Below, piece by piece: positions 40,054-44,386 of a stretch of DNA of 64,000 bases (its first letter is position 1; the number at the start of each line of letters is the position of its first letter). Position numbers and translations under genes: made by a program. Where the stretch lies: contig JAPPLF010000025.1 of the NCBI GenBank assembly GCA_028874215.1, forward strand, positions 1-64,000. Reading direction: 5' to 3'. The notes under the pieces were generated by a model. It was not told the origin of the DNA and did no database searches. It was given only the letters and a program-made list of their open reading frames with translations. This stretch comes from Acidobacteriota bacterium. GTDB taxonomy: Bacteria > Acidobacteriota > UBA6911 > RPQK01 > JAJDTT01.

Positions 40054-40731
40054 ATGGACGGTCTCTTTCCTCGGAGTGGATATATCCGGACTTACCTGGA
40101 GCGTGACGTCGCCCTGTTCGGGCCCCGCCTCCCCGCGGAGACGCTGGAGCGCCTTTGGATCATGCTGGCCCACAGCCAGGGAGGCCTGTTGAATGCTTCC
40201 CGGTTGGCTTCGTCATTGGGTGTCAGCGTGCAAACCGTAAATCGCTATATCGGACTCTTGACCGATCTGCTGCTGGTGCGGCGCCTGGCTCCTTTGCACG
40301 CCGATGTCGGGAAAAGGCTGGTGAAATCGCCGAAGATCTACATACGCGACAGCGGCCTGCTGCACGCTCTGCTCGGCATTGGCGATTTCAATGCGCTGGC
40401 CGGCCATCCTGTGGCCGGCGCCAGTTGGGAAGGGTATGTGATCGAGAATCTGCTCGCAGCCGCCCCGGAACGGACGACGGCCAGTTTTTACCGCACTTCC
40501 GCCGGCGCCGAGGTCGATCTCGTGCTTCAGTTGCCGAACGGCGAACTGTGGGCGATCGAGATCAAGCGGGGTCGCGCCCCGAGACCGGACCGCGGCTTTT
40601 ACAACGCCCGCGCGGACCTGCGGCCTGACCATGCGTTCGTCGCGTATTCCGGGGACGAACGCTTCCCGATCAGCGAAGGCGTTGAGGCGATCGGCGTCTT
40701 CGAACTGGCGATGTTGCTTCAGAACGGATGA
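40054..40731 (+). pseudogene. N-terminally truncated DUF4143 ATPase (C-terminal half)
   Basis: 225 residues matching the C-terminal half of AAA/DUF4143 proteins (about 380-400 residues when complete): YIRTYLERDVALFGPRLPAETLERLWIMLAHSQGGLLNASRLASSLGVS, then the winged-helix region and nuclease-like tail VDLVLQLPNGELWAIEIKRGRAPR. The P-loop ATPase half is missing. The frame is open a little further upstream, reading GGILVPSEF like the family's GGFP...SFL, then ends against the PhyH gene. It is most likely an inactive fragment left by a deletion. Confidence 0.75.
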
Positions 40732-41187: not shown

Positions 41188-42381
41188 TCAAGTCGCCCTT
41201 CTCGGATAGCGGCGCCCGTTCAGCTGTTTCCCGATGAACGTCGGTCGTACGAAGTAGTGGTAGGTCACCAGGATCAGGCCGGTCGCCATGATCGCGACGA
41301 GCGCGAGCTTGACGATCCCCGGAAGCGGCACGTTTGCCAGAACAAGGGGCAGCAGCATGACGAGCGGCACGTGCACGATGTAGATCCAGTACGAGGCGTC
41401 CGCCAGGTACCGCCAGCGCGGGCTCGGCCTGTCCATGTAGCGCAGGAACAGGCCGATCAGGCTATACGCCATGAACCACATGGAAAGCGCGAGGAAGACG
41501 ACCGCCGGCAGGTGCCCATCGCCAGCTTCCGGGCACGTCCTGTCCGGCCTGGGGGGGCAACCGATCTCGAAGAAGTGCCGGTATACGAAGAAGCACAGGA
41601 TGCCGCCGGCGAGGAGAGCCCATGCGGGGCGCTTGAAGCCCTCCAGCGTCTGCCGTCTGCGAAACAGCAGCCAGCCGAATACGAAGAACAGGGCGTAGAG
41701 TGCCAACTGGCGCGGGGCGGGAAACGGGCCGGCGTAGTAGTCGATGGCCCACGACTCCATCCGGTACAGCAGGAGGCCCGCGGCCAGAATCAGCACCGCG
41801 ATGCCTCCACGGTGCACCCAGCGCTCGAAGAGGTCCATCGCACGGGCGCGCACGCCCGCGGGAATCCGGCCGGCGAGCGCGCTCAGTGCGCTCGCGGCCA
41901 CGCACAGGATCATCAGGTGGTAGAGGAACCACAGATGCAGGAACAGGTGGTCAAGGGCCCTGGACGAGGTCAGTTCCGGAAGACTGTAGGTAGCGTTTGG
42001 CGGGGTGGCGCTGAAGCGGGCCGCGAACGGCACGATGAAGAACATCGTGACCGCAAGGAGGGGCCATGCCGCCAGGAACGGAACCCCGATCCGGCTCCAT
42101 CGGTGCCGGAGGAATTCTCGAGTTCCGCGTGTCTTGAGCAGGTACGCCGCAAAGAATCCCGCAATCGCGAAGAAGACCGGCAGGTTGAATACGCGGATGA
42201 AGATCACCACCCAGTAGGCGAGCATGTCGGCCTGGGGATCCCGGTATGGCCACTCGAAGAAGACCGTGGGCACGTAGCTGACCGCCGCGTGGCGAACCAA
42301 GCCGAGCATCATCATGGACGCGCGCAGCTGGTCGAGGGAGTGATACCGGGGAAGTTTCGCCTGTGGCTGTGTGCCGGTCAC
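41188..42381 (-). CDS. Membrane acyltransferase (acyltransferase-3 / OpgC-like)
   Basis: A 397-residue polytopic protein with about ten membrane helices. The family's N-terminal helix carries a histidine (LGLVRHAAVSYVP). Other acyltransferase-3 features include VFFAIAGFFAAYLL, HRWSRIGVPFLAAWPLL, HLWFLYHLMIL and SYWIYIVHVPLVMLLP. Such enzymes move acyl groups, often succinyl or acetyl, onto glycans, lipids or antibiotics at the membrane. The downstream end faces the decayed region. The P450 gene is 7 nt upstream on the same strand, so the two are probably one transcription unit, and the P450 product could be the acyl acceptor (inference). Confidence 0.85.
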   Translation of the reverse strand: MTGTQPQAKLPRYHSLDQLRASMMMLGLVRHAAVSYVPTVFFEWPYRDPQADMLAYWVVIFIRVFNLPVFFAIAGFFAAYLLKTRGTREFLRHRWSRIGVPFLAAWPLLAVTMFFIVPFAARFSATPPNATYSLPELTSSRALDHLFLHLWFLYHLMILCVAASALSALAGRIPAGVRARAMDLFERWVHRGGIAVLILAAGLLLYRMESWAIDYYAGPFPAPRQLALYALFFVFGWLLFRRRQTLEGFKRPAWALLAGGILCFFVYRHFFEIGCPPRPDRTCPEAGDGHLPAVVFLALSMWFMAYSLIGLFLRYMDRPSPRWRYLADASYWIYIVHVPLVMLLPLVLANVPLPGIVKLALVAIMATGLILVTYHYFVRPTFIGKQLNGRRYPRRAT

Positions 42382-42388
42382 CAGGACT

Positions 42389-44386
42389 TTATGCCGTCGT
42401 CGGGACGTCGTGTGTCCGTCGGTGCAGGATGCGGATGCTGAAACGGACGGGCTGCATGGTCGGGAACGACCTCACGCGCAGCACATGGTCGGGCGCGAGC
42501 GGCTCCAGCACGAGCTCCCTCAGGATCGTAGCCATGGTGAGCGCGAGCTGAACCGGGACGAGACCGGCGCCGAGACATCGGTGGGTGCCGGCCCCGAAGG
42601 GAGCATAGGCGCCGCGCTGCCGGTGTTCGCCGCGAGTCTGCGTGAAGCGGTCGATGTCGAAGCGCTCCGGACCGGGGAAGTACTCTTCGAGCGTGTGCCC
42701 GACCGCCGTACCGATCATGACCTGCGTGCCCGCGCGAACCCTGTGACCTGCGAACTCAAACGAGTTGGCGGTCGTCCGAAGTACGGCGGGCGAAACCGGA
42801 TGGAGCCGCAGGGTTTCCATCGCTACGCGGCGCGTGACATCGAGCCTCTTCAAGCCCACGGCGCTCACGCTGCCCTGATCGAACAGGGCGTCCGCCTCGG
42901 CGGTGATGCGCTCCATGAGCTGCGGCCGCTTGAGCACGTTGTAGATCATGAACGAGCATGTGCTCGCTGTGGTGTCCAGTCCGACCATGTAGGGTGCGAG
43001 CACCGTCAGGGGCAGGTTGGTCTCGGGAAGAAGCTGCGGATCGGCGTCGCGCAGCTCCAGCATCAGGTCGATGAAGTCCGGCCTCGTTCTACGCGGACCC
43101 ACCCTGCGCTTGTGTGCGAGGACTGCCCGGGCCAGCTCGCGGCCTCGCTCGCGTGCGTCGCGGAATCGCGGGAGCTTCATGACGTGCGGAGTCGTCGAAG
43201 CGCCCAGTAGCAGCCCGCCGAGGAGCGTGGACAGCTCGCGCGTGTAGCCCTGCGGCGAATAGTCGGCCATCATGTGACCCATCTGCTCGGCGATCACGTT
43301 CTGGAACGCCGGCAACGCCTCGAACGGCTTCCCCAACGGCCACTTGCCGATCTCGTCGCGCGTGATGTCGACGACCTCTTGTGACCGGTCCCTGATGACC
43401 CGGACTGCGTATCCCTTAGCCTGGGCCCTCCGCGTGGTGACGTGATCGATCCCGTCCATGGTCAGGATCGAGCGTGACGAGTCCATCAGGTTGTGGAAAC
43501 TCGCCATGGGCTCGAGCGATCGGAACACGATCTTTCCGTGCGAGGTGAGGAAATTGGTCGCTTCCGGCCCTGCCATGCACACGAACCGGCGCGAGGGAGC
43601 GCGTATCCTGAAGATCGGGCCCAATTCGCGGTACTGGCGGGAAAGGAAGGCGACCAGTCCCTTCCGCATGGCCAGGCCGTTGCCCAGCAGGGGAAGCCCC
43701 GGCACCACCGGAATTTCTTTCGGTCGCCGAGGCTCCGGACGTGGTTCATCGGGCGCCTCGAGTCCTTCGATCGCCAGGCTCATCGTCCGGCCGATCAGAT
43801 CGATATTCTTCAGCAGATCGATGCGATCCTGGACCTGCACCCGCTCCTCCGATGACAGGATCGTGCGGAATACGCCGCAGACGTTTGCGAGGGCAATGAG
43901 CGCGATGTCCGGCGGGTCGGGAATATCATTGTTGAACAAGATCCGCATGATCCGCAGCTTGGCTTCCTCGACCGGCCGCACGTCAACGGCGGGATAGCGC
44001 CGCGACCGCGACACCGACGGGGCGAGGAACACGAGCCCGTCCGCCTCGGATCTCAGGATGCCGCGCTCAATCAGGCGAGCCAGCGCGGCGCGTCGGATCT
44101 GGTCAGCCTGCCCAGCGATCCGTCCGAGCCAATAGCCCGTGTCGCGCGGCTGGACGTCACTTGCGATCTCGGCGAGCGTGGGATCGAGGATGTCGTCGCC
44201 GAACGGCGTGGGATCCACGAGCACCAGGCGCTTGAGATCGGTGTCGATGCGGTCCTGGAGCGCGAGATCCATCAGCACGGCTCCGGCGAGCGCCAGGTCG
44301 AGTGAGCGGGGGGGCAGGCTGGCGGCCAAATCTCCCCGCTCCTCGTCCAGGACGAGAACCAGGATTTCCTCCGCGAACCTCAGCAT
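42389..44386 (-). CDS. GPP34 (Golgi phosphoprotein 3-like) domain fused to cytochrome P450
   Basis: A 665-residue fusion. Residues 1-205 form a GPP34/GOLPH3-like helical domain: LRFAEEILVLVLDEERGDL, LDLALAGAVLMDLALQDRIDTD, LARLIERGILRSE and IALIALANVCGVFRTIL. After a Pro/Glu/Arg linker (210-226), residues 230-655 are a P450: I-helix VGLDTTAST (468-476), ETLRLHP (E524, R527), PERFDIDRF, and the heme loop F597-GAGTHR-C604-LG. No reductase domain is fused. GPP34 binds phosphoinositide in eukaryotes, so here it may guide the P450 to a membrane lipid. ATG 44386 is preferred; the frame is open to 44485. The acyltransferase follows 7 nt downstream. Confidence 0.85.
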   Translation of the reverse strand: MLRFAEEILVLVLDEERGDLAASLPPRSLDLALAGAVLMDLALQDRIDTDLKRLVLVDPTPFGDDILDPTLAEIASDVQPRDTGYWLGRIAGQADQIRRAALARLIERGILRSEADGLVFLAPSVSRSRRYPAVDVRPVEEAKLRIMRILFNNDIPDPPDIALIALANVCGVFRTILSSEERVQVQDRIDLLKNIDLIGRTMSLAIEGLEAPDEPRPEPRRPKEIPVVPGLPLLGNGLAMRKGLVAFLSRQYRELGPIFRIRAPSRRFVCMAGPEATNFLTSHGKIVFRSLEPMASFHNLMDSSRSILTMDGIDHVTTRRAQAKGYAVRVIRDRSQEVVDITRDEIGKWPLGKPFEALPAFQNVIAEQMGHMMADYSPQGYTRELSTLLGGLLLGASTTPHVMKLPRFRDARERGRELARAVLAHKRRVGPRRTRPDFIDLMLELRDADPQLLPETNLPLTVLAPYMVGLDTTASTCSFMIYNVLKRPQLMERITAEADALFDQGSVSAVGLKRLDVTRRVAMETLRLHPVSPAVLRTTANSFEFAGHRVRAGTQVMIGTAVGHTLEEYFPGPERFDIDRFTQTRGEHRQRGAYAPFGAGTHRCLGAGLVPVQLALTMATILRELVLEPLAPDHVLRVRSFPTMQPVRFSIRILHRRTHDVPTTA

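Follow-up and report, generated by a model that had tools for sequence, protein, structure and literature searches.

GOLPH3 and Vps74 belong to the GPP34 domain family (PF05719). As an adaptor, GOLPH3 recruits client enzymes and binds client tails; its PI4P-binding residues are W81, R90, R171 and R174 (PMC13408441). No described function of bacterial GPP34 proteins was found in the searchable literature, and a full-text search of open-access papers returned no description of a GPP34 domain fused to a cytochrome P450. Fusion proteins are known among bacterial P450s; for example, the Methylococcus sterol 14alpha-demethylase (CYP51) carries a ferredoxin at its C-terminus. The I-helix motif of CYP51 is GQHTS, and P450s are usually assigned to one family at an identity of at least 40%. 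Another P450, the stand-alone WP_227398350, is encoded on a plasmid of Planktothrix agardhii; its gene cluster also specifies an oxidosqualene cyclase, a member of the squalene/phytoene-synthase family, an SdmB-like protein and a Rieske protein.

The stretch of DNA analysed here (the window; 64,000 nucleotides) encodes a protein combining a GPP34 domain with a P450. The gene lies on the minus strand, as do its parts and the acyltransferase gene given below, at positions 42389-44386, with an ATG start at 44386, and translates as a single uninterrupted frame of 665 amino acids. Its GPP34 domain (residues 5-202; 43781-44374) matched the Pfam model at 125.1 bits against a cut-off of 29.1 (E = 5.1e-36), covering profile positions 2-194 of 201. 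An inter-domain linker (residues ~205-224; 43715-43774), with a pLDDT below 50 at residues 211-221, leads to the P450 domain (residues ~225-655; 42422-43714), which has a P450 fold and belongs to the P450 superfamily by its Pfam score (172.5 bits against a cut-off of 22.8; E = 1.9e-50), its ExxR motif and its heme-cysteine loop. The ExxR motif (E524-R527; 42806-42817) and Cys604 of the heme-binding loop FGAGTHRCLG (42569-42598) are invariant in 24 fusions, and alignment placed the I-helix acid-alcohol pair at D471-T472 (42971-42976). The initial annotation had read the gene as a GPP34-like domain joined in frame to a P450 with E524, R527 and C604; both domains are indeed complete, and a frame break near residue 210 is excluded in practice by 10 intact relatives (70-86% identity) in which the fusion is likewise continuous. 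It also exists in three paralogue groups of greater divergence. With its 113 contigs, the draft window genome would leave room for an assembly or sequencing artefact, but such an origin is vanishingly improbable, since the fusion occurs without internal stops in many genomes, including the 3-contig G156, and dN/dS is low (about 0.16-0.37) among relatives. Judged by these comparisons of sequences, the GPP34-P450 fusion is real and not a one-off.

The predicted structure of the GPP34 domain had a pLDDT of 91, and all eight fold matches at E-values up to 0.001, the sole significant structural matches, were GOLPH3 or Vps74. A profile of fused and solo GPP34 domains matched GOLPH3 in the PDB at 6e-14, with no significant match outside GOLPH3/Vps74. 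The window domain shares with GOLPH3/Vps74 the domain family, the fold and a membrane-facing hydrophobic beta-hairpin region, and differs from them in being fused to a P450, in its PI4P residues and in a 4-residue insertion in the hairpin region, which the alignment showed to be common to the fused members. Residues W81, R90, R171 and R174 of GOLPH3 align to P25, A34, an acidic residue and an arginine in the window protein; the R174 equivalent is the only PI4P residue kept, and only in some members. Because W81, R90 and R171 are replaced, phosphoinositide binding by the fused domain, the property for which the initial annotation considered GPP34 best known, is not supported by the alignment. 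The hairpin region, at about residues 111-131, is followed by RSRRYP in A-type fusions (the type of the window protein), by basic residues in A- and B-type members generally and by similar basic residues in solo GPP34s. This region could rest on the membrane, and a role of GPP34 as a membrane guide, as the initial annotation proposed, is possible.

Bacterial CYP51s were the closest PDB sequences to the P450 domain. CYP51s were also among its top fold matches, the first of which was the carotenoid hydroxylase CYP97C1. Identity to the CYP51 structures is ~23-24%, under the 40% family threshold, and the I-helix reads GLDTT where CYP51 has GQHTS; by these measures the window P450 is not a CYP51. 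The protein resembles the Methylococcus CYP51-ferredoxin in being a bacterial P450 fusion, but its additional domain is an N-terminal GPP34 instead of a C-terminal ferredoxin. NCBIfam gave weak matches to pentalenene oxygenase and albaflavenone monooxygenase, at 100 bits against a cut-off of 800. The nearest stand-alone P450 on plasmids was the Planktothrix protein (34.6% identity over 434 aa), which is alike in its P450 domain but has no GPP34, and whose cluster contains its own cyclase. The I-helix acid-alcohol pair is missing from the P450s of the C- and D-types (L078, L081-L090, L027 and L028), which are shorter by one residue at this place; the chemistry may therefore differ between groups and, in the C- and D-types, may depart from ordinary hydroxylation. 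At L128:7216-10035 (minus strand), a P450 is fused to two cyclic-nucleotide-binding domains and adjoins a KshA-like Rieske gene.

Only 7 nt downstream of the window fusion, and starting at 42381, lies a gene for an AT3-type membrane acyltransferase of 397 aa (41188-42381). It belongs to the AT3 family by its match to Acyl_transf_3 (PF01757; 92 bits against a cut-off of 31, E = 4.9e-26). OpgC/MdoC-like acyltransferases share this superfamily, but the window protein scored 156 bits against the 338-bit cut-off of the NCBIfam MdoC equivalog model, and it is partnered with a P450, not with glucan synthesis. The adjacency described in the initial annotation is a conserved one, since the acyltransferase is downstream of the fusion in all 17 A-type loci with enough sequence (the window, 10 intact or nearly intact relatives and six downstream fragments). 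An RND exporter follows the acyltransferase in five A-type loci, and one A-type fusion has an MMPL protein with a sterol-sensing domain upstream. Elsewhere in the window, a DUF4143 protein at 40054-40731 lacks the usual N-terminal ATPase part and is possibly a remnant.

Each of the other groups has characteristic neighbours. A sulfotransferase is downstream of the fusion in 11 of 11 B-type loci, and five species of one genus (L111, L133, L135, L137 and L138) have a squalene-hopene cyclase immediately upstream, which exceeds the NCBIfam cut-off for TIGR01507. The upstream cyclase of L114 (G164) and L134 (G172) is present only in pieces, with fusion and sulfotransferase intact. C- and D-type fusions are accompanied by varying combinations of an RND permease, in some cases with adaptor and outer-membrane genes, a Sterol_MT_C methyltransferase, a Rieske oxygenase resembling KshA/SdmA, an SdmB-like reductase and an FAD oxidase. 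The C-type fusion of the window genome itself adjoins an SMT-like gene. No full squalene or oxidosqualene cyclase was recognisable in the window genome (113-contig draft); A-type genes have no adjacent cyclase, and most of their genomes, which are drafts, have none. No redox partner gene is adjacent to the fusion. By coordinates, a solo GPP34 lies ~14 kb from a second squalene-hopene cyclase in G139, G156, G172, G202, G256 and G298.

The fusion is not confined to this locus. Two further GPP34-P450 fusions, at 45% and 34% identity, are encoded in the window genome, and scanning GTDB contigs brought up 20 close relatives at 70-86% identity. Dozens of fusions are spread over Gemmatimonadota, the phylum of the window and, in sporadic cases, MAGs with the label Alphaproteobacteria or Binatia. 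Of 297 genomes sampled from the phylum of the window, about a dozen carry fusions, mostly species of one genus, and the phylum of a Gemmatimonadota genome yielded 32 hits in 200 genomes, most of them full fusions. In the phylum of the 'Binatia' MAG and the class of the 'Alphaproteobacteria' MAG, no full fusions turned up outside the query genome, a pattern that suggests horizontal transfer or else misbinning. The NCBI label 'Gammaproteobacteria' of some loci was not counted toward the spread, because G078, which is L025, is listed within the phylum of the Gemmatimonadota genome. A plasmid collection contained no full-length fusion and one weak GPP34. Many relatives come from sponge-type metagenomes, and one is named rhopaloidicola; sterol clusters are found widely among bacterial sponge symbionts from overlapping phyla (PMC9531527), and in sponge-type settings they are common and horizontally transferred (PMC9531527; PMC10070321). 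The A-type gene pair has unrelated surroundings in different genomes. One A-type locus, L019:10001-12066, gave two matches that overlap (residues 1-87 and 69-664) and thus contains a short internal duplication or a frame change.

A GPP34-domain tree placed the fused domains in one clade (support 96/96) to which no stand-alone GPP34 belonged. Groups A, C and D also emerged from the P450 tree, in which B was unresolved. A stand-alone P450 (L088) was nested among the fusion P450s and has probably lost its GPP34; L110 formed a long branch of unsure place. The domain trees support one old fusion, which would then have split into paralogues with characteristic partners.

The heme loop of A-type fusions is also an integration site. 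Among the 20 close relatives, nine lose homology exactly after the heme cysteine codons, where a shared sequence replaces the rest of the gene; the 57 C-terminal residues absent from this point in G076 are encoded ~10 kb downstream, ahead of the acyltransferase. The intervening DNA (L071:2467-12579; G076:C42) is a tyrosine-integrase island of ~10 kb whose attachment site is the heme-loop codons, with left junctions in L011-L017, L023 and L026 and right junctions in L072-L076. Two GmrSD restriction genes are present in one copy together with three beta-propeller genes, and the tyrosine integrase lies beside the right end. A 14-bp att core, TGYCTCGGCAGCGG, is repeated at both ends. The window gene is island-free, and its equivalent of the core (42564-42577) is uninterrupted and of a different sequence, TGTCTCGGCGCCGG. 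Most island ends are 88-100% identical between hosts, whereas the N-terminal parts of the host P450s share only 86-94% identity, and two left ends are entirely different; islands were therefore inserted repeatedly at this site, in insertions that look independent and recent. Both gene halves of split relatives are open (dN/dS 0.157 and 0.193), which prompted us to consider a programmed, nifD-like gene interruption. We rejected this as the simplest reading, since the islands were inserted repeatedly. An integron attC in the tail after the junction was likewise dropped, because conservation continues beyond the supposed cut site. A scan of viral contigs found no island ends.

We consider it about an even chance (probability roughly 0.5) that the window protein is a P450 docked at the membrane which oxygenates a polycyclic lipid derived from squalene, of the sterol or hopanoid class, the product then being acylated by the AT3 enzyme. 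The GPP34 domain would hold the enzyme on the inner leaflet, probably via its hydrophobic beta-hairpin region, and the P450 would act on a lipid drawn from the membrane. In A-type loci the acyltransferase would esterify the product, most simply at the new hydroxyl; in B-type loci the sulfotransferase would cap it by sulfation, and where an RND pump is linked, the product may be exported. We infer the substrate class from the gene linkage of paralogues and relatives; docking by GPP34, hydroxylation over other P450 reactions and the site of acylation are presumed. Since the window genome lacks a full cyclase, the substrate would probably be imported from outside, perhaps from a host or from neighbouring bacteria.

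A two-step modification of a lipid or isoprenoid had been suggested at the outset from the window alone, and the linkage of relatives to squalene-hopene and oxidosqualene cyclases strengthens it. The completeness of both domains with their catalytic residues, the single clade of fused GPP34 domains and the matching paralogue groups of the P450s, the constant acyltransferase of the A-type, the neighbours of the B-, C- and D-types, the Planktothrix cluster, CYP51 as nearest PDB sequence, the MMPL protein with its sterol-sensing domain and the sterol clusters of sponge symbionts speak for the proposed membrane-docked enzyme and its triterpenoid substrate; against it stand the A-type genes with no cyclase nearby, the low identity to CYP51 (~23%), the missing I-helix pair in the C- and D-types and the lack of an adjacent redox partner. 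The P450 might instead act on another lipophilic isoprenoid, such as a sesqui- or diterpene, a carotenoid or a quinone side chain, which the acyltransferase would esterify, the squalene-cyclase linkage then being peculiar to the B-type. We regard this as unlikely: the absence of a cyclase from the window genome, CYP97C1 as first fold match and the pentalenene and albaflavenone oxygenase matches would fit it, but those NCBIfam scores are far under their cut-offs (100 against 800 bits), and triterpenoid-gene linkage recurs in the B, C and D groups and in the cyanobacterial relative. The role of GPP34 can also be read differently, as a protein adaptor or oligomerisation module that brings the P450 to the membrane acyltransferase or to a redox partner without touching lipid. 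The adaptor function of GOLPH3 itself, through client tails (PMC13408441), the loss of the PI4P pocket and the integral-membrane acyltransferase always encoded next door in the A-type are in line with such a module. However, GPP34 is kept throughout while the partner differs among the A-type (acyltransferase), the B-type (sulfotransferase) and the C- and D-types, and the same genomes contain solo GPP34s that lack these partners, so that this alternative seems doubtful, if somewhat less so than a different isoprenoid substrate.

Conjugated oxysterols have been detected in bacteria, and the enzymes of such downstream modifications are still to be identified (PMC10202945). The loci described here, which pair a P450 with an acyltransferase or with a sulfotransferase, are candidates for oxysterol conjugation, and in several species the run of genes with the sulfotransferase also includes a squalene-hopene cyclase. 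We tentatively propose, at somewhat less than even odds, that GPP34-P450 fusions form a previously undescribed class of membrane-docked triterpenoid oxygenases, which work with dedicated acyltransferases, sulfotransferases and RND exporters to produce conjugated oxysterols or oxyhopanoids in marine and host-associated bacteria. If this is true, the role of bacterial GPP34 domains would be to position enzymes at their lipid substrates. One ancient fusion to a single type of enzyme, together with consistent lipid-pathway neighbours, offers a concrete, testable role for bacterial GPP34.
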